DNA from: a virus
Length of the DNA: 28,737 nucleotides
Virus record (IMG/VR): IMGVR_UViG_3300043449_000526
Span: 1 to 28,737 of that record
Reading direction: 5' to 3' (one strand)
Each line of letters opens with the position of its first letter. Within the stretch, counting starts at the first letter, position 1. A program made the translations under genes and the position numbers. The notes beneath the pieces were generated by a model. It was not told the origin of the DNA. It worked only from the letters and a program-made list of their open reading frames with translations, and made no database searches. Of this stretch, positions 1 through 6,067 are shown piece by piece.

Positions 1-75
1 AAGCATATAGGCGCTGGTGCGCCCGCCGCTAAAGCTAATGCAAGTAGGCCCATCAATCTTGAATGGATCACGCAT
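1..75 (-). CDS. PP-loop / PAPS reductase-like protein, N-terminal fragment
   Basis: Only the first 25 codons are visible; the gene runs off the left edge. The product starts MRDPFKIDGP and then has the PP-loop core SFSGGRTSAYML at residues 14-25. This SGGxxS loop binds the pyrophosphate of ATP in the PAPS reductase / ATP-pyrophosphatase (adenine nucleotide alpha-hydrolase) superfamily. Phages often carry such genes; proposed roles include sulfur metabolism, nucleic acid modification and countering host defence, none of which can be chosen here. The ATG at 75-73 overlaps the last 8 bases of the helix-turn-helix gene, so the two are probably cotranscribed leftwards. There is no strong ribosome binding site in front of the ATG. 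Superfamily assignment is fairly safe, function is not. Confidence 0.75.
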   Translation of the reverse strand, partial: MRDPFKIDGPTCISFSGGRTSAYML

Positions 76-250
76 GAGGAGGAGCCTTAGATAGATAGGT
101 CGACAACCGCTGAATCGCGGTGATGCGGGGCCGCTTGGAGCGACCTCGCTGGAGGGCAAGAACGGTACTGTAATGCAGCCCTGTCGCTGCCGCAACGACC
201 CGAACCTTGCGGTCTTGCAGAGCGGCAACGACTTGCTCAATCGTCATCAT
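68..250 (-). CDS. small helix-turn-helix transcriptional regulator
   Basis: This 60-residue protein is nearly all DNA-binding fold. Residues 2-55 read as a Cro/CI-like or antitoxin-like helix-turn-helix: a helix with TIEQVVAALQ, then VRVVAAATGLHYSTVLALQRG, where AAATGL-HYSTVLAL fits helix-turn-recognition helix, then a final helix around ITAIQRLSTYL. The basic stretch RGRSKRP would suit DNA contact. I chose the ATG at 250 because AGGAG lies 8 bases upstream (259-263); a second ATG follows at once at 247. It is transcribed leftwards, divergently from the recombination operon, and faces a control region with three direct repeats. It is therefore the best candidate in the window for a repressor acting on that region. 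That role is inferred from position. Confidence 0.75.
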   Translation of the reverse strand: MMTIEQVVAALQDRKVRVVAAATGLHYSTVLALQRGRSKRPRITAIQRLSTYLSKAPPHA

Positions 251-521: not shown

Positions 522-1199
522 ATGGCCATCAACCTAAAAACCACCGCATCCCTGGCGTCCAACGGCGCCAAAATCTTGGTCTACGGCCAAGCAGGCGCAG
601 GCAAAACCACCTTGGCAGCAACCCTGCCAGCGCCCATCATTCTGAGCGCCGAGGGCGGGCTCCTGAGCATTCAGGATGCCAACCTGCCCTACATCGAGGT
701 GAGCTCCATGGCCACCCTGATGGAGGCATACAGCTGGCTGCGCGACAGCCACGAGGCCAAAGACTATCAATCGGTGGCGCTGGACTCCATCTCGGAGATC
801 GCCGAGGTGGTTCTCAACGCCGAGAAGAAAAGCAACAAAGACCCACGCGCTGCTTACGGCGCGATGCAGGAGCAGATGGCGGACATTATCCGGGCCTTCC
901 GCGACCTGCCCGGCCGCCACGTCTATATGTCGGCCAAGCTCGAGAAGACGCAGGACGAGATGGGCCGAGTTTTGTACTCGCCATCCATGCCGGGTAACAA
1001 GACCGGCCAAGCCCTGCCGTATTTCTTTGACGAAGTCTTGGCGCTCCGAGTCGAGAAGGATGCCGAGGGCGTGTCACAGCGGGCACTCATGTGCGACAGC
1101 GACGGCCTGTGGCTGGCGAAGGATCGCAGCGGCAAGCTGGGAGTTTGGGAAGCGCCAGACCTTGGCCAGATCATCAGCAAGATCGGCGGTGCGAAATGA
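522..1199 (+). CDS. Sak4-like RecA-fold ATPase (phage single-strand annealing/recombination protein)
   Basis: The 225-residue protein has a Walker A motif GQAGAGKT at residues 22-29 and a Walker B-like strand SVALDSIS around 84-91 with Asp88. A strand containing HVYMSAK follows near residue 132, as in the AAA_24 / Sak4 group of minimal RecA-like phage ATPases. Proteins of this group promote annealing and strand exchange, usually together with a phage ssDNA-binding protein. That partner is present here as the DUF669-type gene at 1567. The start ATG lies two bases after the preceding gene and the stop overlaps the next start as ATGA (1196-1199). Length and motif order fit the family. A generic AAA ATPase is the alternative, but the neighbouring SSB and nucleases make recombination by far the best reading. 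Confidence 0.85.
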   Translation: MAINLKTTASLASNGAKILVYGQAGAGKTTLAATLPAPIILSAEGGLLSIQDANLPYIEVSSMATLMEAYSWLRDSHEAKDYQSVALDSISEIAEVVLNAEKKSNKDPRAAYGAMQEQMADIIRAFRDLPGRHVYMSAKLEKTQDEMGRVLYSPSMPGNKTGQALPYFFDEVLALRVEKDAEGVSQRALMCDSDGLWLAKDRSGKLGVWEAPDLGQIISKIGGAK

Positions 1200-1561
1200 T
1201 CGCGGTCTGGCTGGCGTGCAAAGAGGCGGAACGTCTAGCAACCGAGGCTCGGCGGGTTGTCGAAGACGCCATGATCGAGCAGTTCAAGATTGCCAAGGAC
1301 ATGGAGGGAACCAAAACCTTTATGAACCTTGGCTACACGGTCAAGATCGCTGGCCGCCTGAACCACAAGATTGACTCGGACAAACTGCAAGCGATCGCCG
1401 CCGAGGCCGGCCTGGCCGAGCACCTTGGTTCTCTGTTTCGTTGGAAACCGGAAATCAATTCGTCGGCCTGGAAGTCAGCCGATGAATCCATCACGCGCCC
1501 GCTACTGGGTGCGATCACCACCACGGCGGGCCGCCCGTCTTTTTCAATCACTAAGGAATAA
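1196..1561 (+). CDS. conserved small phage protein linked to Sak4/SSB
   Basis: The true start is the ATG at 1196 overlapping the Sak4 stop (ATGA); longer readings of this frame run into the ATPase gene. The 121-residue product opens with a long charged helix (WLACKEAERLATEARRVVED). A segment with GTKTFMNLGYTVKIAGRLNHKID follows and looks like a beta hairpin, then KLQAIAAEAGL. This layout, an acidic/basic helix followed by a small beta region, is common among phage proteins placed between Sak4-type ATPases and SSBs. I know no proven function. It may be an accessory factor for annealing or for loading the ATPase on DNA; that is inference from position only. Confidence 0.7.
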   Translation: MIAVWLACKEAERLATEARRVVEDAMIEQFKIAKDMEGTKTFMNLGYTVKIAGRLNHKIDSDKLQAIAAEAGLAEHLGSLFRWKPEINSSAWKSADESITRPLLGAITTTAGRPSFSITKE

Positions 1562-1566
1562 ACATC

Positions 1567-2040
1567 ATGGCTTCATTCGGAGAAACATTCGTCGCTGCTG
1601 ACCTGCCCATGGGCAAGAGCTTTGAGCCTCTGCCTGCCGGCTGGTACACGGCGGTTATCACGCAGGCGGCGGTCAAAGACACCAAGGCTGGCACGGGTCG
1701 CTACATCTCGCTGAAGTACGACATTACCGGGCCGTCGCACCAGGGCCGCACGATCTTCGGCAACTTGAACATCAGCAACCCGAACCCGAAGGCGGAGGAA
1801 ATCGGGCGCCAGCAACTCAACAGCCTGATGCGGGCCATCGGCCTGGCGAAGGTGAACGACACCGACCAACTGATTGGCGGGCAACTGAAGATCAAGCTGG
1901 CGATCACCAGCAGCGAGCAGTATGGCGAAGGCAACGAGGTCAAAGACTTTGCCACCATCGCTGGCGGGGCAATGCCTGCGGCAAGCAAGCCGGTGGCTCC
2001 TGCTGCCGGGGCGAAGGCTGCGCCGCCTTGGGCGAAGTGA
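1567..2040 (+). CDS. DUF669-type phage single-stranded DNA-binding protein
   Basis: This is a 157-residue protein. Its N-terminal part FEPLPAGWYTAVITQAAVKDTKAGTG is followed by ISLKYDITGPSHQGRTIFGNLNISNPNP and later IGRQQLNSLMRAIGL. These match the pattern of DUF669 proteins, which carry an OB-like fold and work as phage SSBs. The family usually stands beside Sak4-type recombinases, as here. The tail after residue 135 is Ala/Pro/Lys-rich and ends APPWAK, which resembles the flexible tails of SSBs, although it lacks the acidic tip of bacterial SSB. The AAGGAA ribosome binding site at 1553-1558 supports the ATG at 1567. It probably coats ssDNA made by the nuclease and helicase encoded downstream. 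Confidence 0.82.
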   Translation: MASFGETFVAADLPMGKSFEPLPAGWYTAVITQAAVKDTKAGTGRYISLKYDITGPSHQGRTIFGNLNISNPNPKAEEIGRQQLNSLMRAIGLAKVNDTDQLIGGQLKIKLAITSSEQYGEGNEVKDFATIAGGAMPAASKPVAPAAGAKAAPPWAK

Positions 2041-2051
2041 GATAGAGCAAC

Positions 2052-2075
2052 GGGGCGTGGCGGGTGTCACGCTCC
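2052..2075 (+). other. intercistronic hairpin after the SSB gene
   Basis: GGGGCGTG (2052-2059) can pair with CACGCTCC (2068-2075) through eight pairs, one of them G-U, around an 8-base loop. It lies in the 59-base gap between the SSB stop and the next ATG. No T-run follows, so it is not a standard intrinsic terminator. An mRNA stability element or partial attenuator is possible. Confidence 0.35.
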
Positions 2076-2099
2076 AATCCAAACCAAATAGGAAATATC

Positions 2100-2267
2100 A
2101 TGATTATCAAGTTGAGCAAAGAAGAGATTACAGAAGCAATTCTGGAGTGGACAAACAAACAAATGGACTTTGACTATCAAGAGCACAAGCTCAACATGGT
2201 GGAAATGCACTACGACGGCTGCGAGGTCTTCTGGGTCAAGCCTGAAGCCGAGCCTGAGGCCGCCTAA
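2100..2267 (+). CDS. small acidic hypothetical protein
   Basis: The protein has 55 residues, from MIIKLSKEEITEAILEWT to PEAEPEAA. The first 20 residues predict a helix, followed by hydrophobic strand-like pieces (NMVEMHYDGCEVFWVKP) and an acidic tail. An AGGAAA ribosome binding site 6 bases upstream supports the ATG at 2100 over an upstream in-frame ATG at 2064, which would lie inside the hairpin. The stop shares one base with the ATG of the nuclease gene (TAATG), so translation is probably coupled. No family recognised. A small partner of the nuclease would fit the coupling but is not shown. Confidence 0.65.
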   Translation: MIIKLSKEEITEAILEWTNKQMDFDYQEHKLNMVEMHYDGCEVFWVKPEAEPEAA

Positions 2268-3253
2268 TGGCCACAATCCCAATCCCCGACCCAGTGGCGC
2301 AAGCCATCGACGCCGCCCACGAGCGCCAGGTTGAGTTGCCCAGGTCGCACCTTGGCGCCAGCCAGCTCGGTCACGCCTGTGACCGGTGGCTTTGGCTGTC
2401 ATTCCGCTGGGCGGTGCGCGAGCCATTCCCTGGTCGCATCCTGCGCCTGTTTCGGCGGGGCCGGCTGGAGGAGGCAATGATAGCGGCGGACCTCAAGGCG
2501 ATTGGGATTGAGATACATAGCACCGAGGGCGAGCAGGCCCGGGTTGACTTTGGCTCGCATGTGAGCGGCAGCTTGGACGGCATCATCGAATCTGGCGTGC
2601 CTGGTGCGCCGAAGGCTAGGCACATATTCGAGGCCAAGACGCATTCCAAGAAATCCTTTGACGATCTGGTCAAGCACGGCGTTGAGAAGTCCAAGCCGGT
2701 CCATGCCGCGCAGATGCAGGTCTACATGGCAGGCACGAACATCGACCGCGCCCTGTACTTTGCAGTCTGCAAAGACGATGACCGGATATACACCGAGCGC
2801 CTGCGGTACAGCCGCACGGAGGCCGAACGCCTGATAGCCCGCGGCCATCGCATCGCACTGGCGGACAGGATGCCCGAGCCGCTCTCCAGCAATTCGGCAT
2901 GGTACGAGTGCAAGTTCTGCGCGGCGCATGATTTCTGCCACGGCAGCAAGAAAACAAAGGAGGTGAATTGCCGAACCTGCGCCCACAGCACAGCCGAGCC
3001 TTCAACGCCAGACCAAGATGCACATTGGACCTGCGCACGATTCGACCGCAGCGTGATCCCTATCGCCACGCAATACACCGGCTGCGACAGCCATGTGCTG
3101 CATCCTGACCTAGTGCCGTGGCAGCGACTGGATGGGCCGGATGCTTGGACGGCGATCTATGTCATTGACAGGCGGGAGGTCGCGAATGGGGAGGGGGATG
3201 CGAATGTGTTTGGGTCTCGGGAGTTGCTATGCTCTACAATGACAACATTCTGA
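2267..3253 (+). CDS. Cas4/RecB-like PD-(D/E)XK exonuclease with Fe-S cysteines
   Basis: The 328-residue protein has the active-site signature of the PD-(D/E)XK superfamily: GSLDG with Asp104, FEAKTH with Glu122 and Lys124, and a motif-IV glutamine in AAQMQVYM (Gln149). Cys38 with C215-x2-C218-x5-C224 reproduces the one-plus-three cysteine layout that holds the 4Fe-4S cluster in Cas4 and AddB nucleases. A second cysteine set (C235, C238, C256, C273) follows and may bind zinc. The protein probably resects DNA ends to make ssDNA for the SSB and Sak4-like ATPase. It is coupled to the preceding gene by TAATG. The last residues SRELLCSTMTTF end just before the HNH insertion, so the C-terminus may have been altered by it. 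Confidence 0.85.
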   Translation: MATIPIPDPVAQAIDAAHERQVELPRSHLGASQLGHACDRWLWLSFRWAVREPFPGRILRLFRRGRLEEAMIAADLKAIGIEIHSTEGEQARVDFGSHVSGSLDGIIESGVPGAPKARHIFEAKTHSKKSFDDLVKHGVEKSKPVHAAQMQVYMAGTNIDRALYFAVCKDDDRIYTERLRYSRTEAERLIARGHRIALADRMPEPLSSNSAWYECKFCAAHDFCHGSKKTKEVNCRTCAHSTAEPSTPDQDAHWTCARFDRSVIPIATQYTGCDSHVLHPDLVPWQRLDGPDAWTAIYVIDRREVANGEGDANVFGSRELLCSTMTTF

Positions 3254-3273
3254 CAAAGTGAGGACGTTGCAAC

Positions 3274-3948
3274 ATGGGAAAGCCTGCAATCGACATGATT
3301 GGACTGAAGTTTAATCGTTGGACTGTTTTGTCGGAAGCGTCAAAACCAATTGGCGTTAAAAATACCGGCAAATTTTGGAACTGCGCATGTGAATGTGGAT
3401 TGCAACGAATTGTTTATGGCTGGACTGTCCGCAGCGGAGCAAGCAAGTCTTGCGGATGCTTGAAAGCAGAAAAAAATTCATTGATGATGAAAGAGATGCG
3501 ATTGCGCCAATCTGGGTCTGTGCGTGACCGATTCTTTTCTAGATTTGTTGAACTTCAAAATGGCTGCTGGCAATGGAGGGCGCACACAGACAAAAACGGC
3601 TATGGCGTACTTCCGGGAGACTATAAAAACATTCGAGCGCATCGTTTATCTTATGAAATACACATTGGAGAAATTTTAGATGGAATGATTGTTTGCCATA
3701 AATGCGACAACCCAGGGTGCGTAAATCCAAAACATCTTTTTATGGGCACCTCAAAAGATAACGCACAAGATGCTTTGCAAAAAGGCAGGCATTACATCGG
3801 AGAAAAAAATGGTAGGTCAAAACTAACAAGACAACAGGCTAATGATATTTTTGCGTCAAAAGAAAATGGACAAATTCTGGCAAATATTTATGGTGTAACA
3901 AGATCAACGATAAATAATATTAAGCGCGGAATAACATGGCAAAAATAG
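3274..3948 (+). CDS. HNH homing endonuclease (probable mobile insertion)
   Basis: The 224-residue protein has three parts. An N-terminal zinc module holds C37-x-C39-x-C41 and C60-x-C62 (CACECG ... SCGC). A HNH_3-type nuclease core covers about residues 98-165, with AHRLSY (His123) and [15 protein letters not shown] (C141, C144, C149, Asn151, His154). A C-terminal helix-turn-helix follows at about 182-218 ([12 protein letters not shown] ... [14 protein letters not shown]), fit for target recognition. This is the usual build of free-standing phage homing endonucleases. The DNA is visibly AT-richer than the genes on both sides, a sign of recent transfer. It sits between the nuclease and helicase genes, and its last five codons overlap the helicase start. 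Its target is probably a nearby site in phages lacking the insertion. Confidence 0.88.
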
Positions 3949-5558
3949 AATTGCGTGAATATCAAACTCGTGCTTTAAGAATGCTTTATGAGTGGTTTGA
4001 AAAAAACGCAACTGGCCATCCCGTACTGAACATGCCAGGCGGGTCTGGCAAGTCGGTGGTGATTGCATCGTTGGCAAAGGATGCGTTGCAAAACTGGCCG
4101 GAGACGCGAATTTTGATGCTGGTTCACTCCAAAGAACTGATCCTTCAAAACGCTGACAAGCTGCGCAGATTGTGGCCCGATGCGCCATTTGGCATCTACA
4201 GCGCCAGTGTTGGCAAGCGCCAGCTTGATGAGCCAATCACCTATGCCGGCATTGGGTCTGTGGCCAATCGTAGCAAAGAGATCGGGCACATTGATTTGTG
4301 CATCATTGACGAAGTGCACGCTGTTTCAACCGCCGAGAGTGGCATTTATCGGAAGCTGATTGCCGACTTGCTCAAGATCAATCCAGCCATGCGAATTGTT
4401 GGATTGAGCGCCAGCCCCTACAGGCTTGGGCAAGGCCTGATAACTGAAGGACCAACCGCAATCTTTTCCGATATTTTGGAGCCTGTCAGCATCCAGGAGT
4501 TGGTTTCCAAAGCGCACCTTGTCCCGCTGCGATCAAAGATCACTAATCACAAGCTGGACACAGACGGGCTGCACAAGCGCCAAGGAGAATACATTGCGTC
4601 CGAGATGGAGGCAAAGTTCAACACCGACGATCACAACGGTGCCGTGGTAGAAGAGATCATCGAGAGGGCAAGCAACCGGGAGCATTGGCTAATTTTTTGC
4701 TCTGGTGTTGCTCACTCTGAAGCTGTAGCCGAATGTTTGCGTGGGGCTGGCATTCCTGCCGAGTCGCTGGATGCAACGCATAGCAAGTCTGAGCGCGAGC
4801 GCAAGTTGGCAGATTTTGAGTCTGGTCGAATGCGTGCTATTTGCTCAGTTGGAATTTTAACGACAGGCTATGATTTTCCTGCCTTGGATTGCATTGCGTT
4901 CTTACGGTCTACTATGTCGCCAGGTCTTTACTTGCAAATGGCCGTGCGCGGCATGAGGCCGCACTTAGGCAAGACCGACTGCCTCGTGCTTGACTTTGCA
5001 GCAGTGGTGGCAACCCATGGCCCAATCACCCATGTCCGACCGCCGAACAAAAAGGGCGAGAAGGAAGGCGCAGCGCCGGTCAAGCTATGCGACAACTGCC
5101 AGGAGTTATGCGCCTTGGCGGCCCGTGTATGCCCTGCCTGTGGGCATCCGTTCCCAGAACCTGAGCTCAAGAAGTTGAAGTTGCAAAACGATGACATCAT
5201 GGGACTGGCGGGCAAAGAGATGGAGGTGACTGCCTGGCGCTGGCGCAAGCATGTCAGCCGGGCCAGTGGGCAGGAGATGTTGATGGTCACCTATTACGGG
5301 GCATTGTCGGACGCACCAGTGAGCGAATACATGCCGGTGAACAATCCCGGCTATGCCGGCGAGAAGGCCAGGCGGACTGTGGCAGAGATCGCCTCGGGTG
5401 CTGATGTGCTTGTGTCCGACCTCTACAACCCGCTGGACGTGGTGGCCGACATTCTGTCCTGCGGCGAGCCGCCAGACATGATTGAGTTCAAGATGGACGG
5501 TAAATATCACCGTGTTTTGCAAAGAAAATGGAAACTAGATGCGCCACAAACAGCCTGA
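3936..5558 (+). CDS. SF2 DEAD/DEAH-type helicase with C-terminal zinc finger
   Basis: The 540-residue protein shows the superfamily 2 motifs in order: a Q-motif-like start LREYQTRAL (6-14), Walker A PGGSGKS (34-40), DEVH (125-128), SAS (158-160), TTGYDFP (309-315) and motif [11 protein letters not shown] (334-342). Residues 385-402 carry four paired cysteines (CDNC ... CPAC), a likely zinc finger. The C-terminal 130 residues are unassigned. The nearest known role is that of UvsW/RecG-like or type III restriction-type phage helicases in branch migration and recombination-dependent replication. The start at 3936 lies inside the HNH gene. The first 75 bases share that gene's AT-rich composition and turn GC-richer after about 4015, hinting that the insertion replaced the helicase 5' end. 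The stop overlaps the next gene by 20 bases. Confidence 0.9.
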
Positions 5559-5730
5559 GATCGTGACGATCTACTACAAGATGCTCGAGGCCGGCCCGCC
5601 CAAGTGCTGCCATAGCTGCGAGATGTATGGCACTGACGGACTGTGCGTGGAGTTTTTTAAGGAGCCGCCGGAAGAGTTTGCCGCCACGCCGGATGCCTGC
5701 AACAAGTGGACCCTTGACCTGCCCTTCTGA
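5539..5730 (+). CDS. small cysteine-rich (zinc-binding) phage protein
   Basis: This 63-residue protein holds the pattern PPKCCHSCEMYGTDGLC followed by C54 in DACNKW, giving five cysteines. CxxC plus two distal cysteines would hold one zinc ion. It overlaps the end of the helicase by 20 bases and ends one base before the ATG of the VRR-NUC gene. Small proteins of this look are commonly placed between helicase and VRR-NUC genes in related phages. The role is unknown; a DNA-binding accessory to the recombination enzymes is the natural guess. Reality of the gene is supported by the tight fit between its neighbours and the ordered cysteines. Confidence 0.7.
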   Translation: MRHKQPEIVTIYYKMLEAGPPKCCHSCEMYGTDGLCVEFFKEPPEEFAATPDACNKWTLDLPF

Positions 5731-5731
5731 T

Positions 5732-6067
5732 ATGAAAACCGAGCACGAAGAACAACGCGAGCTGGTGCAGTGGATACGCCAAGCCTGCGGGGTGCGGGTC
5801 TTTGCGATCCCGAACGGCGGCCTGAGAGGCATCGCCGCGGCTGGTCGCTTGAAGGCAGAAGGCGTATCGGCTGGCGTGCCTGACCTGTTCATCCCGGCTT
5901 GGCTGCTCTGGATCGAAATGAAGCGCGAGACTGGCGGCAGCGTCTCGTCGGAGCAGCAGAGCTGGCATGACTACCTGCGCAACCTGGGCCACCATGTGAT
6001 CGTTGGGCGAGGGCAGGAAGATGCTAAAGAAAAGATGCGAAACCTAGGGTTTGTACCTAGAATTTGA
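5732..6067 (+). CDS. VRR-NUC domain nuclease
   Basis: This is a stand-alone 111-residue VRR-NUC protein. The PD-(D/E)XK-type active site is complete: Glu7 in the N-terminal helix, GVPDL (48-52, Asp51), and IEMKR (61-65, Glu62 and Lys64), followed by a glutamine in SSEQQ. PNGG (26-30) is also typical of this family. Phage VRR-NUC proteins are structure-specific nucleases believed to act like Holliday junction resolvases; the eukaryotic relative is FAN1. I start at 5732 because the longer frame would read through the preceding gene. It closes the DNA-metabolism operon, so it likely resolves the branched intermediates made by the upstream annealing protein and helicase. Confidence 0.88.
   Translation: MKTEHEEQRELVQWIRQACGVRVFAIPNGGLRGIAAAGRLKAEGVSAGVPDLFIPAWLLWIEMKRETGGSVSSEQQSWHDYLRNLGHHVIVGRGQEDAKEKMRNLGFVPRI

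Follow-up and report, generated by a model that had tools for sequence, protein, structure and literature searches.

A conserved early recombination operon of tailed phages with Sak4, a DUF669 SSB, a Cas4-type exonuclease, an SF2 helicase and a putative exonuclease accessory protein

The window (the whole stretch of viral DNA analyzed here, 28,737 nucleotides) carries a widespread and conserved early phage recombination operon. Operons of this kind have already been recognized and the window is a further instance; what is added here is a proposed role for its DUF7173 gene, a conserved double cysteine quartet in its nuclease and a cargo site between the nuclease and helicase genes. Family scans of the contig found genes for portal, major head, head-closure and head-tail adaptor proteins as well as for an endolysin and a holin, which identify it as that of a tailed phage; this 28.7-kb IMG/VR virus record is probably a fragment.

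Organization of the operon

An earlier note, made from the letters alone, had listed five enzymes in the order Sak4, DUF669 SSB, Cas4-type nuclease, SF2 helicase and VRR-NUC, and the family scans agree. All open reading frames that it named were recovered at the positions it gave, with 5732 as the best start of the VRR-NUC gene. Its gene list thus stood as to enzymes and coordinates, but it omitted the HNH open reading frame at 3274–3948 and missed the Pfam name of DUF7173. The operon and its flanking regulator are organized as follows:

68–247, minus strand: Cro-like regulator, divergent, flanking the operon (phrog_18104, E 2e-8)
522–1199, plus strand: Sak4-type RecA-like single-strand annealing protein (AAA_24; phrog_124, E 7e-56; PF13479, E 6.6e-30)
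1196–1561, plus strand: DUF7173 (phrog_2480) protein (PF23791, E 7e-15; AlphaFold2 pLDDT 93)
1567–2040, plus strand: DUF669-family phage SSB (PF05037, E 6.6e-14; phrog_6015 SSB, E 1e-25)
2100–2267, plus strand: 55-aa lineage-specific protein (no Pfam and no significant PHROG match)
2267–3253, plus strand: Cas4-type PD-(D/E)XK exonuclease with two Cys quartets (phrog_1990, E 2e-92; AlphaFold2 pLDDT 91)
3274–3948, plus strand: HNH homing endonuclease between nuclease and helicase (PF13392, E 2e-10; phrog_1872, E 3e-32)
3936–5558, plus strand: SF2 (ResIII/COG1061-like) DNA helicase with C-terminal zinc-ribbon-like cysteines (phrog_16, E 4e-91; PF04851; PF00271)
5539–5730, plus strand: 63-aa Cys4 protein, overlapping the helicase stop (C24, C27, C36 and C54 conserved)
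5732–6067, plus strand: VRR-NUC protein, predicted Holliday-junction/flap nuclease (PF08774, E 8e-6; phrog_824, E 1.5e-34)

The VRR-NUC protein scores 26.3 bits against PF08774 (cut-off 23.8), and its P50-D51 and E62-x-K64 are found in 18/18 homologues. The Cro-like gene was found in 78 loci. In close relatives, a PAPS-reductase-like gene precedes the primase/helicase, which is encoded separately and divergently. The start of a PAPS-reductase-like gene (SGGRTSAYML) lies at 1–78 of the window on the minus strand, cut by the contig end, and locus L028 contains a complete PAPS-reductase-like gene before the primase.

Conservation of the operon across phages

Loci were retrieved via the nuclease alone, yielding 80 close and 64 distant viral contigs, 28 bacterial genome loci and several named phages, and the neighboring genes were detected at these loci by iterated profiles. 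Loci counted as covered upstream with at least 3.5 kb of flanking DNA (118 loci) and downstream with at least 4 kb (91 loci). Both Sak4 and the SSB are present in 118/118 upstream-covered loci, DUF7173 in 111/118 and the 2100–2267 gene in 30/118. Downstream, we found the helicase in 84 of the 91 loci, the Cys4 gene in at least 40 and a recognizable VRR-NUC gene in at least 37, the latter two counts being lower bounds because the profiles miss diverged copies. These locus counts are not independent, since the loci are related.

The gene order is nearly fixed: DUF7173 is located either directly before Sak4 or between Sak4 and the SSB, followed by the SSB, the nuclease and the helicase. The same layout occurs in the phages Pseudoalteromonas H40/1, Roseobacter CRP-901, Salmonella BP63 and ZCSE2, Stenotrophomonas Bhz54, Shewanella S0112 and E. 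coli 9g. A recognized VRR gene is absent from some of the named phages with this layout, including E. coli 9g and Salmonella BP63. The earlier note had suggested checking for co-occurrence of all eight genes, and for the enzymes, found in a single order, this is borne out. For the three small genes the outcome is mixed: DUF7173 is conserved beside the enzymes and 5539–5730 partly so (73 loci), but 2100–2267 is not conserved beyond close relatives. A DUF7173-Sak4-SSB-Cas4-helicase cluster is also found in bacterial genomes (L161–L188), mostly of Rhodobacterales and other alphaproteobacteria; these copies are presumably prophages.

Proposed recombination pathway

The Sak4 gene encodes a Walker A motif (GQAGAGKTT) and, by the phrog_124 profile, a RecA/RadB-like core. 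The DUF669 SSB gene adjoins sak4/DUF7173. In phage HK620, Sak4 anneals strands and the cognate DUF669 SSB stimulates this annealing (PMC5928155). The window resembles HK620 in pairing Sak4 with a cognate DUF669 SSB, with annealing demonstrated in HK620 (PMC5928155), whereas HK620 has Abc2 and lacks the Cas4 exonuclease and the helicase. The SSB tail of the window ends in APPWAK, with PPW in place but the acidic residue missing in comparison with HK620 (NDYPPF).

With Sak4 and the SSB at every upstream-covered locus, the helicase at nearly all downstream-covered ones and one gene order throughout, we consider it highly probable that the operon serves as an early recombination unit of a tailed phage, divergent from the Cro-like regulator and the primase/helicase. 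The SF2 helicase would open or remodel DNA ends and forks and the Cas4-type exonuclease would resect one strand. The DUF669 SSB would cover the single-stranded DNA and load or stimulate Sak4, which would anneal homologous strands. Branches would be migrated by the SF2 helicase, a role suggested by the COG1061-type annotation in a relative, and branched intermediates would be cleaved by the VRR-NUC protein. Jointly, these activities would repair broken phage DNA and produce concatemers for packaging. The DUF7173 protein would be the accessory C-terminal domain (CTD) of a recombination exonuclease, encoded separately by a gene next to Sak4, and would thereby couple the nuclease to the annealase.

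The earlier note had gone further and considered self-sufficient replication or DNA uptake, and neither suggestion held up. The primase/helicase lies outside the module as a separate divergent gene in relatives and the module contains no polymerase, which makes it an accessory to replication and not a self-sufficient replicator. A DNA-uptake system does not agree with a tailed-phage contig that carries lysis genes as well as genes for portal, major head and head closure. We also rejected a competence identity by context, as neither Com/pilus genes nor a cellular chromosomal setting was found on this phage contig.

The Cas4-type nuclease

The nuclease of the window contains the D...ExK and QxxxY catalytic motifs. 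Among 60 non-redundant sequences, to which the nuclease set reduces, D104, E122, K124 and Q149 are found in 60/60 and Y153 in 58/60. The Cas4/AddB-like cysteines pointed out in the earlier note were located as C38, C215, C218 and C224, one N-terminal and three C-terminal, and they are invariant in all 60 homologues. Its second cysteine set corresponds to C235, C238 and C256 (60/60) and C273 (59/59 rows aligned there) and is likewise essentially invariant.

Searching PDB sequences with the profile of the nuclease gave no homologue. The AlphaFold2 model is nearest to LHK-Exo (3syy; Z 12.7, rmsd 4.2 over 177 residues), followed by Cas4 SSO0001 (4ic1; Z 11.9, rmsd 4.3 over 187 residues) and lambda exonuclease (Z 11.6–11.8). 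Motifs, cysteines and nearest folds together identify the protein as a recombination-type exonuclease with a predicted Cas4 Fe-S site. The modeled fold is compatible with either polarity, and we only infer the polarity of resection. The second quartet probably binds zinc; the homologue in phage 9g is annotated with a Trm112p-like domain. In locus L077 (~736–1492), an HNH open reading frame lies inside the nuclease gene and divides the first from the second cysteine set. An Rfam scan of the window and L077 detected no intron or other RNA.

The Cas4 fold and Fe-S cysteine layout could also indicate that the nuclease is a phage Cas4 interfering with how CRISPR systems acquire spacers. A PADLOC Cas4 match (E 7e-6) and a Campylobacter phage Cas4 precedent, as cited in PMC5704561, can be adduced for this. 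We regard this as most unlikely. LHK-Exo and lambda exonuclease score as high as Cas4 in the fold comparison, and the constant partners of the nuclease are Sak4, the SSB and the helicase, not Cas1/Cas2; neither in the window nor in its annotated relatives do the module genes include cas1 or cas2.

A second alternative comes from phage 9g, in which the function of the Cas4-helicase pair was left unknown or as possible restriction (PMC5567051). Restriction of unmodified DNA was proposed there because the pair lies close to the dG+ genes (PMC5567051). A role of the pair in restriction or host-DNA degradation (nucleotide recycling), apart from Sak4-SSB, would also agree with the scores of the helicase against ResIII and type IV restriction helicases, and with the methylases and TGT-like genes at the nuclease-helicase junction. 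It is nonetheless improbable: the 9g pair itself comes immediately after Sak4 and the DUF669 SSB, and across the upstream-covered loci Sak4 and the SSB are constant whereas DNA-modification genes occur in some loci only and vary in type. The neighborhood data favor recombination over restriction for this pair.

DUF7173, a putative exonuclease accessory protein

The small genes were described in the earlier note as undescribed components. This applies to function only, since 1196–1561 is already known as Pfam DUF7173/phrog_2480. A PDB fold search with its model gave no match (best Foldseek E 0.44; best VIA Z 2.9). In BFVD, the matches of the model include the TIN4 PD-(D/E)XK nuclease (prob 1.00, TMq 0.46), the KellEzio RecB-like exonuclease, the Kokobel1 exonuclease and a host-nuclease inhibitor, all reported without the aligned target range. 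Three DUF7173 members weakly match phrog_434 (RecE-like exonuclease; best E 0.011). In an Acuticoccus locus with no detectable DUF7173 (L186), a free-standing open reading frame of the same operon matches phrog_434 over 284–368 (E 6.5e-7). A tblastn search with this free-standing CTD against phages returned nothing, nor did a PF09588 search in 15 related records.

We built a profile of the CTD in the Listeria A118 exonuclease family and searched it against the 13,724 open reading frames of the module loci. All matches (10/10) were DUF7173 proteins, as against 0/5 with the reversed profile and 6/61 with 40 shuffled profiles. Among segment profiles of the exonuclease, the C-terminal segment retrieved DUF7173 in 9/11 matches and the rest of the exonuclease in 0/105. 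In profile-profile comparisons, DUF7173 aligns to the CTD of both nuclease types with P 0.0013–0.0016, decoys giving 0.03–0.8, and the order helix-hairpin-K/R-x-D agrees between DUF7173 and the exonuclease CTD. The individual E-values are weak (best 0.01), and the link is convincing only as a set with its controls. Taken so, homology of DUF7173 to the RecE/YqaJ exonuclease CTD is likely, if not proven, and from this resemblance the protein may act in trans as an accessory domain of an exonuclease.

The only paper found that names DUF7173 reads it differently. In Rosemountvirus SD286, the DUF7173 protein gp38 was interpreted as a receptor-binding protein, and the purified recombinant protein inhibits phage adsorption (PMC12946066, 2026). 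If this applied to the family, its position in the operon would be incidental. The claim draws on competition and binding assays in which recombinant gp38 was used at mg/mL concentrations (PMC12946066). Against it, DUF7173 lies within an early DNA-metabolism operon at 111/118 loci, and its relatives by structure and profile are the C-terminal domains of exonucleases. In the SD286 gene table, gp38 itself lies upstream of the genes for the AAA ATPase, the YqaJ nuclease and the SF2 helicase (PMC12946066). This gene position fits an intracellular DNA role better than receptor binding, and we consider an adsorption function of DUF7173 very unlikely. With the accessory-domain reading, a near-universal gene of the operon gains its first mechanistic hypothesis, contrary to the published claim.

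Other small genes

The 63-aa protein is widespread. Its four cysteines (C24, C27, C36, C54) are conserved in 30/30 non-redundant homologues, and its gene overlaps the helicase stop by a median of 16 nt (−16 nt). The protein aligns to residues 231–285 of the nuclease, the second cysteine domain (hhalign P 0.0014), so that by sequence it is possibly a stand-alone relative of this domain. In loci L119–L130 (e.g. L120, 2137–3395), the Cys4 gene directly follows the nuclease with no helicase detected in between; helicase and Cys4 gene are therefore separable. The 2100–2267 gene was found in 49 loci, all close relatives, and may be dispensable.

A wider reading is possible, if less likely than not. 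The operon might encode a split exonuclease, in which the CTD found in cis in RecE/YqaJ-type and some actinophage Cas4-type nucleases is separately encoded as DUF7173 beside Sak4, and a stand-alone copy of the nuclease zinc domain is encoded behind the helicase, coupling resection to annealing and branch migration.

Comparison with known systems

Among the closest layouts is that of Idiomarinaceae phage 1N2-2 (NC_025439), in which ORF53-45 follow the same order: Sak4, DUF7173, SSB-like protein, Cas4 exonuclease, helicase, a small gene and a VRR-nuclease. A divergent regulator and a primase lie beside the module. Phage 1N2-2 differs in having two other open reading frames instead of 2100–2267, no HNH gene and a longer small gene before the VRR-NUC gene. 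Alteromonas phage PB15 also shares the order, with DUF7173, the small gene after the helicase and VRR-NUC all in place, but has no HNH gene and a different open reading frame before the nuclease. Enterobacteria phage 9g (Nonagvirus) has a contiguous Sak4-DUF669 SSB-Cas4-helicase array, whereas its dG+ synthesis genes come next, a RusA-like resolvase is encoded elsewhere and the DUF7173-like gp17 lies upstream of Sak4.

For Burkholderia phages, it was proposed in 2012 that an exonuclease and Sak4 make up a conserved recombination system (PMC3483164). Phages PA73, KL1 and BcepGomr share Sak4, exonuclease and SF2 helicase with the window but belong to another phage group, and the small genes were outside that analysis. 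Lambda Red and RecET follow the same logic of an exonuclease with an annealing protein, and the nuclease fold is close to lambda exonuclease. In contrast to these systems, the window has a RecA-like Sak4 annealing protein and a Cas4-type nuclease with cysteine quartets, and adds a helicase, an SSB and a junction nuclease. The findings support a Sak4-SSB-Cas4-helicase recombination system that is conserved among very different phages, and with it a role in recombination for the phage Cas4 nucleases, which have variously been called restriction, anti-CRISPR or unknown in papers.

The nuclease-helicase junction as a cargo site

The HNH homing endonuclease is cargo and not part of the core. Its gene has 40.6% GC versus 55–62% for most of the module, and related open reading frames were found in 11 loci. 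The junction in which it resides (3253–3936 in the window) exceeds 400 nt in 58/151 loci and its content varies, comprising cytosine methylases, a TGT-like gene, ParB with a PAPS reductase, an endonuclease VII-like gene or HNH genes (loci with cargo at this junction include L011, L020, L026, L033, L046 and L067). The 5′ part of the helicase gene (3949–5044) is 94.8% identical to L046 (7802–8897), which carries a different cargo gene, versus about 70–72% identical to, or unalignable with, cargo-free relatives. This pattern is as expected for co-conversion beside a homing endonuclease.
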